From Planctomycetota bacterium (GTDB taxonomy: Bacteria; Planctomycetota; Phycisphaerae; Phycisphaerales; Phycisphaeraceae): a stretch of DNA of 64,000 nucleotides. Positions 8,726-63,833 of the stretch are shown here, piece after piece (position 1 is the first letter of the stretch; every line of letters begins with the position of its first letter). A model generated the notes under the pieces. That model ran no database searches. It was not told the origin of the DNA and saw only the letters and a program-made list of their open reading frames with translations. Where the stretch lies: positions 62,001 through 126,000 of the forward strand of contig JAJRRC010000022.1 of assembly GCA_024279865.1 (NCBI GenBank). The letters run 5' to 3'. Both the position numbers and the translations under genes were made by a program.

Positions 8726-9037
8726 CCACACAAAAAATACGAAAACACGAAAAATAAAAGAGTAAATCTTTGGCATGATCTTCATCTTTATGTTCAAAAG
8801 CGAACTCACCTGTCGCGTGTGGTAAGAATCCGACTCTTCGGCCCCGGGGGGACCTCAGAGTGCGGCGTTGTCCTCACGACAAATATCTCGACCTGATGAA
8901 CCTGTCACATTGCAAAAATACGTCATTTGGCTAATTCAAGCCCGTTGCCATGGGGCATGCCAACGAGACCTTCGTTGCCATTAAAATTTAATTCTTCGCG
9001 TTGTTTTTGTGCCTTTTTGTGTTTTTTGTGGCTATTC
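8720..9037. repeat. Inverted-repeat-bounded intergenic element, MITE-like
   Basis: The 8726-9111 gap has no gene. It is bounded by imperfect inverted repeats: GAATAGCCACACAAAAAA at 8720 and, inverted, TTTTTTGTGGCTATTC ending at 9037, each continued by A/C-rich (or T/G-rich) sequence for about 40 bp. A copy of the AATCCGAC hairpin family lies inside at 8811-8866. The left end overlaps the stop codon of the preceding gene. Size and shape suggest a non-autonomous element; no target duplication was seen. Confidence 0.45.
8811..8866 (+). repeat. AATCCGAC-type hairpin repeat, copy 1
   Basis: This 56-bp sequence is almost identical (four differences by eye) to 28962-29017. It contains AAGAATCCGACTCTTCGGCC followed by a G-rich centre and CTCAGAGTGCGGC. 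ACTCT and AGAGT form the stem. See the copies at 28962, 32894, 42004 and 49462. Confidence 0.75.
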
Positions 9038-9111: not shown

Positions 9112-9948
9112 ATGCCTCATACTTTGCGAATTTTATTTCTGTTGCGACGTGTTCTTTTCACTGCCGTGGCAGTTTTAATGACGCTGACGGTGTGGCTTTT
9201 ATTGGCAGACATCCTCATGCGTCACCCCCTTGGCGCGTTCACACTGAAACACTTTAGTATTCAGCATGGCTTTTGGCCGATCTTGGATCATGGCTTTCGT
9301 GGCGCGATGGCGGTCTATCCTGAAACCCTCGCAGCCCACTGGGCTATCACGCTCCTAGGCTTGGGTATTTTTTGTCTCACGCAGTTTCTATTTCTCAATC
9401 CAACCATCGGCTGGCTTGATAGTTTGATCCATCGAACGCCGTTGCCCTCATCAAGCATTATCCTCGGCGCGTTTCCCATGGCCCTGCTCAGCGTCGGTGC
9501 GATGAGCATTGCCCTTGAAGCAGTGGACTTGTGGCAATGGCTCCCGGGCCCCACCTTTCGGGCCTATGGCTGTTTGTGGCTCTCCCCAACACTACTGCTT
9601 TGGTTTAGTCTATTGGTATCTTGGGCTGCTTGGAGTGTGTGGCTGCAACGTCGCCTCCGTCATGGGGATCATTACATGCACATGGCAAGCATGATCTATG
9701 CCTTGTTCGTGGTTGCAGGATTGGAAATTTTCGCTGGCGGGCTGATCCATCTCAAGCAAGTCGGCCTCACCTCAAGCTATTGGCACAGTGGCACGTACAC
9801 GGGATTGATTCTCGCGTCATCGGTTTTGTTATGGACCTTGGGACCGGGACTGATTTTGATCTACGCAGCAGGTCAATACTGCACCCGCCGCCGCGAGCTG
9901 ATCCACGCAGGCGATGCCATGGGCAAACAGTGGTTTGCGCCAATCTAA
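9112..9948 (+). CDS. Polytopic membrane protein, unknown function
   Basis: A 278-residue hydrophobic protein that matches no family I know. It has six or seven predicted transmembrane segments: residues 10-32, 78-95, 112-132, 148-170, 190-208 and 222-246 (WHSGTYTGLILASSVLLWTL). Short charged loops such as RRLRHGDHYMH and a C-terminal tail, CTRRRELIHAGDAMG, separate or follow them. The gene stands alone downstream of an inverted-repeat element. It shares composition and topology with the zinc-ribbon protein at 7961-8725 but lacks the ribbon, so the two may be distant paralogues; this is a guess from layout. The ATG at 9112 is the first in frame. Confidence 0.62.
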   Translation: MPHTLRILFLLRRVLFTAVAVLMTLTVWLLLADILMRHPLGAFTLKHFSIQHGFWPILDHGFRGAMAVYPETLAAHWAITLLGLGIFCLTQFLFLNPTIGWLDSLIHRTPLPSSSIILGAFPMALLSVGAMSIALEAVDLWQWLPGPTFRAYGCLWLSPTLLLWFSLLVSWAAWSVWLQRRLRHGDHYMHMASMIYALFVVAGLEIFAGGLIHLKQVGLTSSYWHSGTYTGLILASSVLLWTLGPGLILIYAAGQYCTRRRELIHAGDAMGKQWFAPI

Positions 9949-28961: not shown

Positions 28962-29017
28962 TGTCGCGTCTGGAAAGAATCTGACTCTTCGGCCCCGGGG
29001 GGACCTCAGAGTACGGC
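28962..29017 (+). repeat. AATCCGAC-type hairpin repeat, copy 2
   Basis: TGTCGCGTCTGGAAAGAATC begins a 56-bp copy with four differences from 8811-8866. Beyond it, at 29029-29052, is half of a palindrome copy (CATACTTGCTTACGGCT), and the following 13 bp (CAAAATGCGCTAG) end in the stop codon of the PLD-like gene. Confidence 0.75.
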
Positions 29018-29077
29018 TTACAAAAGAGTCACCAGCATACTTGCTTACGGCTAATTGACTGCCTTTTACAAAATGCG

Positions 29078-29677
29078 CTAGGCCAGTAGCTGCGGTTCTT
29101 CCAGGGGTGCGGGGCAGATATCCGTGCGGCCACAGTCTTCACAGCGATGGCCTTCCCATAGCCGATTGAATTGCTCCAGAATGCCATCAATGAGATTGGC
29201 GTCGTCGGTCCAGATGCCCCATTCGATATTGCGACGGCGAGGCGATTTCGCACCAAGTCCTGCCCCGGTCATGTTGGCGGACCCGAGATACATGACCTCC
29301 GCATCGACGATGACTGATTTGGCGTGGAGGCGAGGACATCGCCGAACGATTAAATTCTCTGGTAAGGATCGTCTCAACGCAGTGAGTGCTGCAGCACTGG
29401 GAACACCTGCATGGAGCAAACGAATTTCGATGCCCCGCTCAGCGAGACGGACCAAGTGGGTGATGATCGAATCGGCCTTGCCCCGACGACCACGGCTTGC
29501 GGAGGAACTTCCGGGGGCGCTTCCGGGGGCGGGGGTGGGGGTGAGCATGGCTTTGAGGTCGGCGGTGGTGATGTCCAGACTGGTTTTGGCTTTGAGCATT
29601 CCGCCGAGGACCACTCGCTGAAAATGTTCTTCGTCAATGATCAATTCAACGGGTGATTTTTCGGGAAAAAGGGGCAT
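29078..29677 (-). CDS. Phospholipase D-like protein with single HKD motif
   Basis: A 199-residue protein. The HKD motif is RLHAKSVIVDAEVMYLGSAN (His118, Lys120, Asp125, then the conserved GSAN) and there is one such motif, as in bacterial PLD-nuclease-like proteins that dimerise. The C-terminus has a small CEDCGRTDIC zinc-type pair. Residues 47-63 (TPAPGSAPGSSSASR) are encoded by the GC-rich minisatellite and lie before the catalytic core. Start at 29677 (MPLFPEKSPV) is chosen because the upstream frame runs through repeats. Function: phosphodiesterase on phospholipid or nucleic acid, not decided. Confidence 0.74.
   Translation of the reverse strand: MPLFPEKSPVELIIDEEHFQRVVLGGMLKAKTSLDITTADLKAMLTPTPAPGSAPGSSSASRGRRGKADSIITHLVRLAERGIEIRLLHAGVPSAAALTALRRSLPENLIVRRCPRLHAKSVIVDAEVMYLGSANMTGAGLGAKSPRRRNIEWGIWTDDANLIDGILEQFNRLWEGHRCEDCGRTDICPAPLEEPQLLA
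29505..29543 (-). repeat. GC-rich minisatellite inside the PLD-like gene
   Basis: On the coding strand the sequence reads CCCCCGGAAGCG then CCCCCGGAAGTT, encoding PGSA and PGSS repeats. The insertion lies between the N-terminal segment and the HKD domain and preserves the frame. Confidence 0.75.
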
Positions 29678-32893: not shown

Positions 32894-32934
32894 TTGGGGG
32901 AATCCGACCCTTCAGTAGACTTCAGGGTTCGGCC
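32894..32934 (+). repeat. AATCCGAC-type hairpin repeat, copy 3
   Basis: TTGGGGGAATCCGACCCTTC continues AGTAGACTTCAGGGTTCGGC. CCGACCCTTCAG pairs with CTTCAGGGTTCGG (one bulge). The first 20 bp match the start of the copy in murC (42004). About 47 bp further comes CAAAATGCGCTAG, whose CTA is the stop codon of the GH57 gene. Confidence 0.72.
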
Positions 32935-32988
32935 TTGTGATAGCTGCAAAGCTATCGCTGGATTTATGAAGCTTTAATGCAAAATGCG

Positions 32989-40884: not shown

Positions 40885-42534
40885 ATGACTGCCATGTCAC
40901 TTGTGAATCACATTCCCACGGTGCCTGACCTGGCATCCAAACAGCTCTACTTCGTGGGTATTGGCGGGTGCGGGATGTCCGGCCTCGCCAGACTCGCCCG
41001 GACGTATGGCGCTTCGTGCAGCGGCAGTGATTATCAAGCCAGTGAAACCACCGAATCACTCGTGGCAGAAGGCTTTGCGGTGAGCCTTGTCCAAACAGCG
41101 GACGATTTACCAGACCCATGTGATTATCTGGTGATCTCTGCTGCGATTACCCCGGAGCATCCTCAATATCGTGAAGCACAACGTCGCAATATTCCCGTCC
41201 TGAAATACGCCCAGCTATTGGGCAGCCTCATGATCGGCCGCAAGGGTGTCGCCATCGCAGGAACCCATGGCAAAAGCACCACCACCAGCATGCTCAGCTA
41301 CCTCTTAATCAAAGCAGGACTGGACCCCAGCTTCATCGTCGGAGCCACCTGTCAATCCATCGGCGGTGGTAGCCGCGTGGGCCAGAGCGACCTCCTAATC
41401 GCTGAAGCCTGTGAATACGACCGATCCTTCCACCATTTTCATCCCACCCTGGGAACGATTCTCAACGTCGAAGAAGACCACCTCGATATTTATGACAACC
41501 TCGAAGCAGTCGTCGAAAGCTTTGCGATCTTTGCACGCCAATTGCCCGATGACGGCTACCTCTTAATCAACCATGACATGCCCCACCGCCTAGCGATCAC
41601 CGCAGGACTCAACTGTGAAATCCAAACGGTCGGCTTTGCCCCCCAAGCAGACTGGCAAGTCCAAGTCGAACAAGCCACGGACGAACCTGCCTGTGCGTGG
41701 GTCAGCCTGCGCCACGACGGCCAACACGTTGCTCGCTGGATCAATCCCATGCCCGGCGAACACATGGCCTCCAACGCGGCAGTGGCAGCGATCCTGACAC
41801 ATCGGCTGGGCGCGGACTGGGACACCATTGAAACCTTGCTACCCACGTTTGGCGGGCTGGACCGACGGATGCAAATGCTGGGAACCAGATATCTTGCCCC
41901 CGGAAGCGCCCCCGGTAGTTCCCCCGGTAGTTCCCCCAAAAGCGTCCCCGGAAGTTCTGGGGGAAATGGTCCAAATAATGCGGATCACACGTCTGATCGT
42001 ACATTGGGGGAATCCGACCCTTTGGCCTCAGAAGGCCAAAGGGTTCAGAATTGTGATCCCGGCAAAACCGGGAAAAATACGAAAATCCAATCTGGAACTT
42101 CCGGGGGGGTTTTGGTGGTGGATGATTATGGGCATCACCCCACGGAGGTTGATACGACGCTGCGGGCGTTGCGTAGATATTATCAGCCCACTCGGTTGAT
42201 TTGTATTTTTCAGCCTCATCAACATAGCCGCACCCGTTTTTTGATGGATCAGTTTGCCACGAGTTTTTCGGAGGCCGATTTGATTATTGTGCCTGAGATT
42301 TACTTTGTGCGTGACAGTGAAAACGAACGTCACACCGTCAGTGCAGCGGACTTGGTGGATCGGCTAAGGCATCAGGGCAAACAGGCGATGCACTTGTACC
42401 CTTTTATTGCCATTATCGAACAGCTTGAACTGATCGCCCGTGACGGCGATTTAATTGTGACCATGGGCGCGGGCGACGTTTGGCAGATCGCCCACCAATT
42501 TCTCAATCCTTCTGCCCCGATGGAGAATCTGTAA
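40885..42534 (+). CDS. murC: UDP-N-acetylmuramate--L-alanine ligase with repeat-encoded insertion
   Basis: A 549-residue Mur ligase that adds L-Ala to UDP-MurNAc in the cytoplasm. The N-terminal domain has FVGIGGCGMSGLARL; AGTHGKSTTTSML (residues 125-137) binds ATP; EACEYDRSFHHFHPT and NVEEDHLDIYD are the metal and substrate loops; DDYGHHPTEVD (413-423) starts the C-terminal domain. About 70 residues (338-408), between MQMLGTRYL and VLVVDDYGHHP, are extra and encoded by repeats. The family usually has about 460-490 residues. The essential nature of murC implies that the insertion is tolerated or removed; no stop or frameshift occurs. The stop overlaps the DUF1805 start by one base (TAATG). 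Confidence 0.92.
   Translation: MTAMSLVNHIPTVPDLASKQLYFVGIGGCGMSGLARLARTYGASCSGSDYQASETTESLVAEGFAVSLVQTADDLPDPCDYLVISAAITPEHPQYREAQRRNIPVLKYAQLLGSLMIGRKGVAIAGTHGKSTTTSMLSYLLIKAGLDPSFIVGATCQSIGGGSRVGQSDLLIAEACEYDRSFHHFHPTLGTILNVEEDHLDIYDNLEAVVESFAIFARQLPDDGYLLINHDMPHRLAITAGLNCEIQTVGFAPQADWQVQVEQATDEPACAWVSLRHDGQHVARWINPMPGEHMASNAAVAAILTHRLGADWDTIETLLPTFGGLDRRMQMLGTRYLAPGSAPGSSPGSSPKSVPGSSGGNGPNNADHTSDRTLGESDPLASEGQRVQNCDPGKTGKNTKIQSGTSGGVLVVDDYGHHPTEVDTTLRALRRYYQPTRLICIFQPHQHSRTRFLMDQFATSFSEADLIIVPEIYFVRDSENERHTVSAADLVDRLRHQGKQAMHLYPFIAIIEQLELIARDGDLIVTMGAGDVWQIAHQFLNPSAPMENL
41896..42111 (+). repeat. Composite repeat insertion in murC
   Basis: Left part (41896-41965): 12-bp units CCCGGAAGCGCC, CCCGGTAGTTCC (twice), CCCAAAAGCGTC and CCCGGAAGTTCT. 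Middle (42004-42050): copy 4 of the AATCCGAC hairpin, with CCCTTTGGCCT pairing with AGGCCAAAGGG. Right end (42094-42110): inverted GGAACTTCCGGGGGG. The insertion is therefore bounded by inverted copies of the GC-rich core. It has about 72 codons and keeps the reading frame. Confidence 0.8.
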
Positions 42535-49404: not shown

Positions 49405-49508
49405 TAGTGATCAGCTTTCAGTCAGAAAAATCAAAGAAAGCGTTTTTTTAGAGCATCAAAAAGCCGAACGCGGAGGTCTTCCGAAGCATCGGATTCTTTC
49501 CAAATGCG
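49405..49508. repeat. Heptamer array and inverted AATCCGAC-type copy 5
   Basis: GTGATCAGCTTTCAGTCAGA (49406) is a short heptamer array. On the minus strand, 49508-49462 reads TTGGAAAGAATCCGATGCTT and continues CGGAAGACCTCCGCGTTCGGC, clearly related to 28962-29017. The rest of the 49313-49552 gap is unremarkable. Confidence 0.6.
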
Positions 49509-62150: not shown

Positions 62151-63833
62151 TCAATACACATCACGCTGATACCGACCGGTTTTTTGTAGTTCATCAATGT
62201 AATTCTTCGTGGCCTGCTCATCGAGACCGCCCTCTTGAGAAACAACCTGATGCAACGCTTGATCCACGTCCCGCCCCATCTGGCGTGCATCACCACAAAC
62301 ATACAAATGAGCACCTTGTTCGAGCCAGTGCCATAACGGCGTAGCCTGTTCGAGCATGCGGTGTTGAACGTAAATCTTTTCTTTTTGATCGCGTGAAAAA
62401 GCAACGTCCAGCCGAGTCAATACATTTTTTTCTTGGTATTGAAGCAATTCACGTTCATACAAAAAATCCGTCTCACGTCGCTGATCCCCAAAGAAAAGCC
62501 AATTCCCCCCCCCGGAAGTTTTGGATACGTCTCCCCCGGCCCCCCCGGTTCCCCTGACTCCCCTGACTCCCCTGACTCCGGGGGGGCCGGGGGGCGTTTC
62601 CAAGGTCGATCTTTCCTGTAAAAAGGCACGAAAAGGTGCAATGCCTGTCCCGGCTCCGATCATGATGACCCCTGCGATTGGATCTCTTGGCAAGGCAAAG
62701 TTGTGAGCCTTCTGTACAAAAACTTTCACCGCTTCTCCGGGTTCAATCCGACGGGTCAAATAGTTCGAGGCCACCCCTTGCCGCTGGCGACCGCCGGATT
62801 CATAACACACCACGCCCACCGTGAGATGAACCTCTTGCGGATACACCTTGGGCGAAGACGCAATGGAATACAAACGTGGCTGAAGCATTGGCAAAATTGC
62901 AAGCAAAGTCTCCACCTCCGGACGGACAGCAGGATAGCGTTCGAGTAAATCCAAAAGCTCCATCTCAGCCAAAGCCTCGTCATCTTCTGCCAAGGCTTGG
63001 AGTTCTGCCTTGACCGAAGCATCGGTCGCATGTTGAGCAAGCAAAGTGACCACATCCTCCTCCAATGCAGTGACCATGCAATGACAACGCAAAACTTCTT
63101 CCAGCAACATTGGTTCATTGCCAAAAGACACTTGCATCTGAGCGTCAAGGTCTAGTTGCTCCAAAATTTGAGAGATCAGCAGGGGATCATTTTGCGGACA
63201 AACGCCCAAGCTGTCGCCTGCTTCGTAGACTAGCCCGCTGTCCGCCAAGTCCAAAGCGACGAATCGGGTGTCCTTGGCAGAACCTTTGCCATTGAGTTTT
63301 TTAACGGTTAATAAGGGAGCGTCAAATAGCTGTGGTCCGTTGTCCTTGAGAACCTTTGCCGATTCAATTTCGCTTTCATCCAAAGCGGGTGCATTTTCTT
63401 TCACCATTTTTTTAAGTGCTTTGGAAGTTTCGGTTCCGCCGGGAGCGCATCGGGTCAAACTTTTTTCGGTCCCCTCAGCAATCGCCGCCGCATAGGTTTC
63501 GCATTGATACCCACATGCCCCACAATCCAACTGCGCCATGGCAGCCATCATCTGCAAGGAGACCGTTCGATCCTTGGCCAGTTCCAATCGCTCGGCCAAT
63601 TCCAATGAACCATCATGCCAAGGATGCGATTCTTCCTCAGGGGGGGCCTCTAAAACAGCAGTCCCTCCCAAATGGTCGGAGGTCATTCCGGGGGCTATTC
63701 CGGGGGCTATTCCGGGGGCACTTCCGGGGGCACTTCCGGGGGGGGGGATGAGGCCGGCAAAGAAGCCGTTGAGCCAAGCTCTTTGCTGGGGGTCAAATGG
63801 AGCGGATTCGGGAATGATTGGAGATTGCATCAC
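62151..63833 (-). CDS. Sulfite/nitrite reductase flavoprotein-like subunit with N-terminal Fe-S domain
   Basis: A 560-residue CysJ-related reductase without the flavodoxin domain. Instead, residues 95-135 form a [4Fe-4S]-type domain (LDCGACGYQCETY and CAPGG; Cys104, 107, 111 and 129). An FAD-binding domain (YSIASSPKVYPQEVHLTVGV, with RLYS near residue 318) and a ferredoxin-NADP-reductase nucleotide domain (MIGAGTGIAPFRAFLQE and FFGDQRRETDFLY) follow. The C-terminus ends GRYQRDVY, as in CysJ. Two repeat-encoded insertions break it: residues 31-50 (PGSA/PGIA units) and about 409-444 (GVR repeats). It probably supplies electrons to the reductase encoded just upstream (10-bp gap). Confidence 0.84.
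   Translation of the reverse strand: MMQSPIIPESAPFDPQQRAWLNGFFAGLIPPPGSAPGSAPGIAPGIAPGMTSDHLGGTAVLEAPPEEESHPWHDGSLELAERLELAKDRTVSLQMMAAMAQLDCGACGYQCETYAAAIAEGTEKSLTRCAPGGTETSKALKKMVKENAPALDESEIESAKVLKDNGPQLFDAPLLTVKKLNGKGSAKDTRFVALDLADSGLVYEAGDSLGVCPQNDPLLISQILEQLDLDAQMQVSFGNEPMLLEEVLRCHCMVTALEEDVVTLLAQHATDASVKAELQALAEDDEALAEMELLDLLERYPAVRPEVETLLAILPMLQPRLYSIASSPKVYPQEVHLTVGVVCYESGGRQRQGVASNYLTRRIEPGEAVKVFVQKAHNFALPRDPIAGVIMIGAGTGIAPFRAFLQERSTLETPPGPPGVRGVRGVRGTGGAGGDVSKTSGGGNWLFFGDQRRETDFLYERELLQYQEKNVLTRLDVAFSRDQKEKIYVQHRMLEQATPLWHWLEQGAHLYVCGDARQMGRDVDQALHQVVSQEGGLDEQATKNYIDELQKTGRYQRDVY
62504..62597 (-). repeat. GC-rich and 9-bp repeat insertion, reductase domain loop
   Basis: On the coding strand, GGAGTCAGG is repeated three times (encoding GVR), flanked by G/C-rich stretches giving GPPG and GGAGG and by a CCCCCGGAAG-family edge. 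The encoded loop is collagen-like (Gly-x-y). It lies between the FAD and NADP binding halves. Confidence 0.7.
63685..63749 (-). repeat. 12-bp minisatellite in the reductase N-terminus
   Basis: Five units of 12 bp (CCCCCGGAAGTG twice, CCCCCGGAATAG twice and CCCCCGGAATGA) encode PGSA, PGSA, PGIA, PGIA and PGM. It is the longest perfect in-frame array of the family. Confidence 0.8.

Follow-up and report, generated by a model that had tools for sequence, protein, structure and literature searches.

The 64-kb stretch of DNA analysed here (the window) derives from a draft assembly (G000) of 3.42 Mb in 122 contigs. On its forward strand, at 40885-42534, it carries a murC gene that encodes a UDP-N-acetylmuramate--L-alanine ligase of 549 aa. 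This protein scores 396.4 bits against TIGR01082 (cut-off 335.1), contains the Pfam domains Mur_ligase, Mur_ligase_M and Mur_ligase_C, and has its closest named matches in the Phycisphaeraceae of the Planctomycetota. MurC is an essential cell-wall enzyme. Profile and similarity searches of its own genome detected one full MurC match together with two further, weaker Mur ligase matches that are adjacent and located on another contig. Thus, a second murC that could be the functional copy, which the first-pass annotation of this DNA had allowed for, was not detected in this genome.

An extra block in MurC

The distance between the conserved motifs GLDRRMQ and DDYGHHPTE is 82 residues in this protein versus 10-30, with a mode of 11, at 90 other MurC loci (a set in which a few genomes are counted twice), which bears out the earlier claim of an insert between two conserved MurC blocks. 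The size first given to this insert, 216 bp or 72 codons, needs a small correction as the spacing at these loci places the extra part at about 71 codons (41896-42108 on the forward strand, residues 338-408). These limits were chosen so that the residual spacing equals the modal 11, and the right edge is placed to a precision of about one codon. As had been noted, the reading frame is uninterrupted from 40885 to 42534. Alignment of 50 MurC sequences also indicates that the invariant residues of the enzyme, among them GTHGK, the RR of GLDRRM and DD..HHP, are kept. Solved MurC structures match both flanks and leave the block as the only unmatched part. An AlphaFold2 model built from the 50-sequence alignment has a mean pLDDT of 87 for MurC overall, while residues 341-400 average 28-51 per ten residues and are flanked by strands 330-336 and 408-414. 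Since the region of low pLDDT falls between two strands, the block is predicted to form a long disordered turn of the beta-hairpin that joins the middle and C-terminal domains. The MurC of a genome from another genus (G015, locus L013) has no such block even though this genome is rich in the repeat described below, so the insert is particular to the G000 lineage among those compared.

An assembly or binning error at murC deserves mention given that G000 is a 122-contig draft and that repeats are frequent sites of misassembly. However, the frame is open across the block, the flanks of murC match in the correct order, and its 12-bp repeat also lies in frame within numerous genes from several genomes that were assembled independently. 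We therefore regard such an error as extremely improbable.

Two dispersed repeat families

Read from 5' to 3', the insert opens with 12-bp units, continues with a spacer that holds a copy of a second repeat and with a third, small hairpin, and closes with an inverted unit. The left arm (41896-41955, forward strand) is an array of 12-bp units of what we term family A (GCCCCCGGAAGC, GCCCCCGGTAGT and others) that encodes the peptide APGSAPGSSPGSSPKSVPGS, with units located at 41896-41907, 41908-41919, 41920-41931 and 41944-41955. The right arm (42094-42109, reverse strand) is an inverted family A unit, GGAACTTCCGGGGGGG, which gives the insert its inverted ends. Both the GC-rich 12-bp units at the start and the inverted GC-rich core at the end had been recognized at first pass, and both are confirmed by these positions. 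No target-site duplication of 4 bp or more is seen at murC. Within the 64-kb window, CCCCCGGAAG occurs 12 times versus 0.20 expected, a count reached in 0 of 100 shuffles.

Between the two arms lies a diverged copy of a second family, termed family B (42004-42060, forward strand; consensus GAATCCGACNCTTC..GNGTNCGGCGTTGTGAT), that was located with a covariance model. This model (R1) was built from 29 other copies, none derived from murC, and it scores the murC copy at 25.7 bits (E = 2e-4 in the window). Inside the copy is a perfect 12-bp hairpin with a 4-nt loop (42017-42044, forward strand) whose arms, ACCCTTTGGCCT and AGGCCAAAGGGT, occupy 42017-42028 and 42033-42044. The first-pass annotation had assigned this hairpin to a second dispersed family. 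The model supports that membership as well as the perfect pairing, but a hairpin with these exact arms is found nowhere else in a whole-genome search, and the dispersed family becomes apparent only through similarity searching and the model. Family B has at least 146 copies in the source genome (150 candidates scored), four copies in one relative and none in 24 other relatives sampled, and it has no match in Rfam. Additional copies in the window are located at 8820-8877, 28971-29028, 32894-32944 and 49452-49502. The murC insert is thus a composite of two separate dispersed repeat families. The early description of a nested composite in a functional gene holds up well, as both families have been identified and the single MurC has its motifs intact.

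Family A is a dispersed 12-bp GC-rich unit with the consensus CCCCCGGAAGYN. A two-unit pattern, CCCCCGGAAGYNCCCCCGG, has 176 matches in the 3.4-Mb genome and none with a reversed control. Since each match represents two adjacent units, there are fewer than 176 arrays, with the first 100 matches grouping into about 60 arrays. G015 likewise has 176 matches to this pattern, and family A matches occur in 32 of 51 Phycisphaeraceae. In a sample of 246 genomes from across the phylum, a three-unit pattern is present in four, including three Phycisphaeraceae, and family A is almost missing from the phylum outside this bacterial family. Two further arrays in the window, both on the reverse strand and both within open reading frames, are located at 29506-29529 (peptide APGSAPGSS) and at 63719-63742 (in a 570-aa frame). 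A protein that by eye appears FliH-like has arrays after its conserved end both in G000 (L227) and in G049 (L267), which may be inherited or independent.

The arrays are also polar. The left edge is sharp and lies at a run of C, with identity to the unit dropping to 0.28 one unit upstream (background 0.25), while the right edge fades through identities of 0.52 and 0.40 past the last recognised unit. This pattern is independent of gene strand and is seen in G000, G015 and G049. Inverted pairs of units less than 200 bp apart are convergent in 16 cases and divergent in one, and some arrays have no recognisable right arm. A search of left flanks for a target motif found only mild C richness. The simplest reading of these edges is that arrays grow from the C-run end as older units decay. 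Another palindrome lies between family A arms within a gene at 9112-9200 of locus L236. This third palindrome, GCACGCTTACAGCGTGC, occupies 9148-9164 of that locus and is also found at L035, L048, L183, L190 and L217.

Short GC-rich units with inverted pairs, together with two Y1 transposase matches in G000 and the known occurrence of REPs within genes (PMC3733652), raise the question of whether a RAYT (Y1) transposase mobilises family A as a REP-type element. However, Y1 matches occur in 46 of the 51 Phycisphaeraceae genomes regardless of array number, one genome of 98% completeness (G045) has 28 pattern matches and no Y1, and the GTAG or CGTC tag is missing from the unit consensus. A RAYT-driven origin is consequently quite unlikely, and Y1/RAYT was dropped as the candidate mover for want of any correlation with array number.

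Repeats within coding sequences

We classified 134 arrays in 392 kb of sequence surrounding arrays, at loci that were chosen because they contain them. This sample comprises 84 coding, 22 noncoding and 28 ambiguous arrays, with coding status taken from open frames, which GC-rich repeats favour, rather than from annotation. All six frames of the family A unit are free of stop codons, and arrays within genes use both strands and all six frames. Use of these frames is uneven (TSGG 23, APGS 20, PPEV 16, LPGA 16, HFRG 7 and PRK 2; chi-square p = 4e-4). In particular, the Arg-bearing frames PRK and HFRG account for nine of the 84 coding arrays versus an expected one third (p = 2e-6) and for none of 26 arrays in a second genome. 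Within genes, 85 of 88 unit spacings are divisible by three, as compared with 41 of 56 elsewhere (p = 5e-5). Avoidance of Arg frames and multiple-of-three spacing are both expected only with translation of the repeats. Beyond a stop codon, nine family A units at locus L053 (also L253, 2474-2573) have 11-bp spacing as compared to 12 bp in genes.

These frame statistics bear on how the murC block is tolerated, for which a protein loop, RNA processing and intein-like removal had all been suggested at first pass. The predicted RNA fold of the block has an energy of -100 kcal/mol (z = -4.8 versus shuffled sequence), and such strong structure in an essential gene might be taken to mean that the block never reaches the working protein, being lost by RNA splicing, ribosome bypass over the hairpins or protein splicing. 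Evidence against removal is that no Rfam intron family occurs at or near the insert, where the single match is to an unrelated family at 16.9 bits (cut-off 55). In addition, Pfam detects only the three Mur ligase domains and no intein (Hint) domain, and the 71-residue block is mostly predicted to be disordered. A length of 71 codons is too short for an intein. Furthermore, if the block were removed there would be no need for multiple-of-three spacing or avoidance of Arg frames in genes. Intein, intron and bypass were set aside on this domain, Rfam and frame evidence, and we consider removal highly unlikely. The protein loop is the one suggested route that is supported, as it is favoured by the disordered turn in the AlphaFold2 model and by the frame bias and spacing in genes.

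A different objection is that these loops arose locally by slippage as Pro-Gly-Ser linkers that were selected as such, with no dispersed element involved. Tandem 12-bp units, low-complexity peptides and unit numbers that differ among loci would all fit such an origin. Nevertheless, the same 12-mer occurs in every one of the six frames and on either strand, and intergenic copies exist as well, so the shared entity is the DNA and not the peptide, and its sharp left and decaying right edges are found whatever the strand of the gene. We judge local slippage to be unlikely.

Hosts of in-frame arrays that could be named with NCBIfam include valine--tRNA ligase (valS), RadA, MiaB, Mfd (partial on its locus), HypD, an asparagine-synthase-like protein, a chorismate-using enzyme and a DnaK/HscA-like chaperone. 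In ValRS the in-frame excess is located between positions 594 and 598 of the solved chain, and an aminotransferase has about 20 extra residues at its array relative to a solved structure. For the DnaK/HscA-like protein no solved structure matched at the strict threshold chosen. One gene is available in filled and unfilled form in two species of one genus, reading MEEVYPR-TPGSAPGSAPGSSAGS...-RELYL in G049 (in full, MEEVYPR-TPGSAPGSAPGSSAGSPPASAPGSARVEESIV-RELYL) and MEEVYPR-GEAGSE-RELYL in G001, a pair too diverged for reading a target-site duplication. IMPDH and a third locus were rejected as filled and unfilled pairs as their alignments were too poor.

A model for the murC insert and its relation to known elements

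We propose that the murC insert is translated repeat DNA that has survived where the peptide it encodes is a flexible surface loop, a reading to which we assign a probability of roughly 0.85. In this model selfish or neutral repeat DNA would have been incorporated into the coding sequence of murC when a family A element, bounded by inverted ends, inserted at a beta-hairpin turn on the MurC surface. The array would then have lengthened by 12-bp steps, and a family B palindrome would subsequently have inserted into the loop made by family A. From the sequence the block is presumed to be transcribed and translated, with its peptide probably disordered and outside of the folded MurC domains. Such a block would be tolerated because family A has no stop in six frames, because its length keeps the frame and because the encoded peptide (Ala-Pro-Gly-Ser and similar) is flexible. 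The order of insertion, A before B, draws on placement. Of 27 family B copies examined, 21 are noncoding, three coding and three ambiguous, a contrast with family A that is indicative as the two samples were drawn differently. Since B is mostly intergenic and A mostly coding, a B copy in murC fits with the A loop having been a safe place, which points to an earlier A loop that then offered B a harmless location. More tentatively, and with appreciably less confidence than an even chance, family A may represent a separate kind of small mobile DNA, able to start arrays at new sites and to extend them from one end by stop-free 12-bp increments that preserve the frame. Genes would then be as open to colonisation as spacers, and the arrays could afterwards receive other repeats.

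The closest parallel is with the Rickettsia palindromic elements (RPE; Ogata et al. 2000, 2002), which are in-frame repeats in unrelated genes (PMC10969869, PMC3733652) of about 150 bp that encode a conserved peptide (PMC10969869). Like RPE, family A is dispersed, occurs in frame in unrelated and probably functional genes, and appears to be tolerated as extra peptide. Compared by description, it differs from RPE in being a 12-bp tandem unit in polar arrays from another phylum, and it has no single conserved peptide because the unit is read in all six frames. REP elements and their inverted dimers carry GTAG or CGTC tags, are in some cases located in coding genes such as uvrA, and have been reported from Planctomycetes as well (PMC3733652). 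Family A resembles intragenic REPs in being short, in having inverted dimers and in having some copies in coding genes. Unlike REPs, CCCCCGGAAGYN has neither tag (GGTAGT occurs in variant units only), and family A forms tandem 12-bp arrays that have no link to a RAYT gene across the family. Family A is also small and dispersed with inverted ends as are MITEs, but no target-site duplication was seen at murC, no matching transposase was found, and its body is a tandem array of variable length. Coding palindromes of nematomorph mitochondria are likewise inverted repeats kept in protein-coding genes (PMC6649704), but these are long perfect inverted repeats in animal mitochondria with no 12-bp unit family. 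A literature search with little reach into subscription journals found no paper that describes the family A unit, and this 12-bp tandem, six-frame, polar family of the Phycisphaeraceae seems to represent a variant not described before.

If this model is correct, then repeat DNA continually supplies conserved enzymes of one bacterial family with new disordered loops. The scale involved, with 84 coding arrays in 392 kb and heavy loads in two genera, would allow the rules of tolerance to be measured with respect to fold position, frame and length. A series of filled and unfilled sites would also provide natural material for studying how essential proteins accept inserted peptides, and the apparent polar growth of 12-bp arrays offers an opening for studies of the spread of such DNA. 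Additional in-gene repeat families are hinted at by open reading frames of G015 (L277 and L293) that contain other repeated peptides, GCHTAGRRVLCA-like and HAAGY-like.
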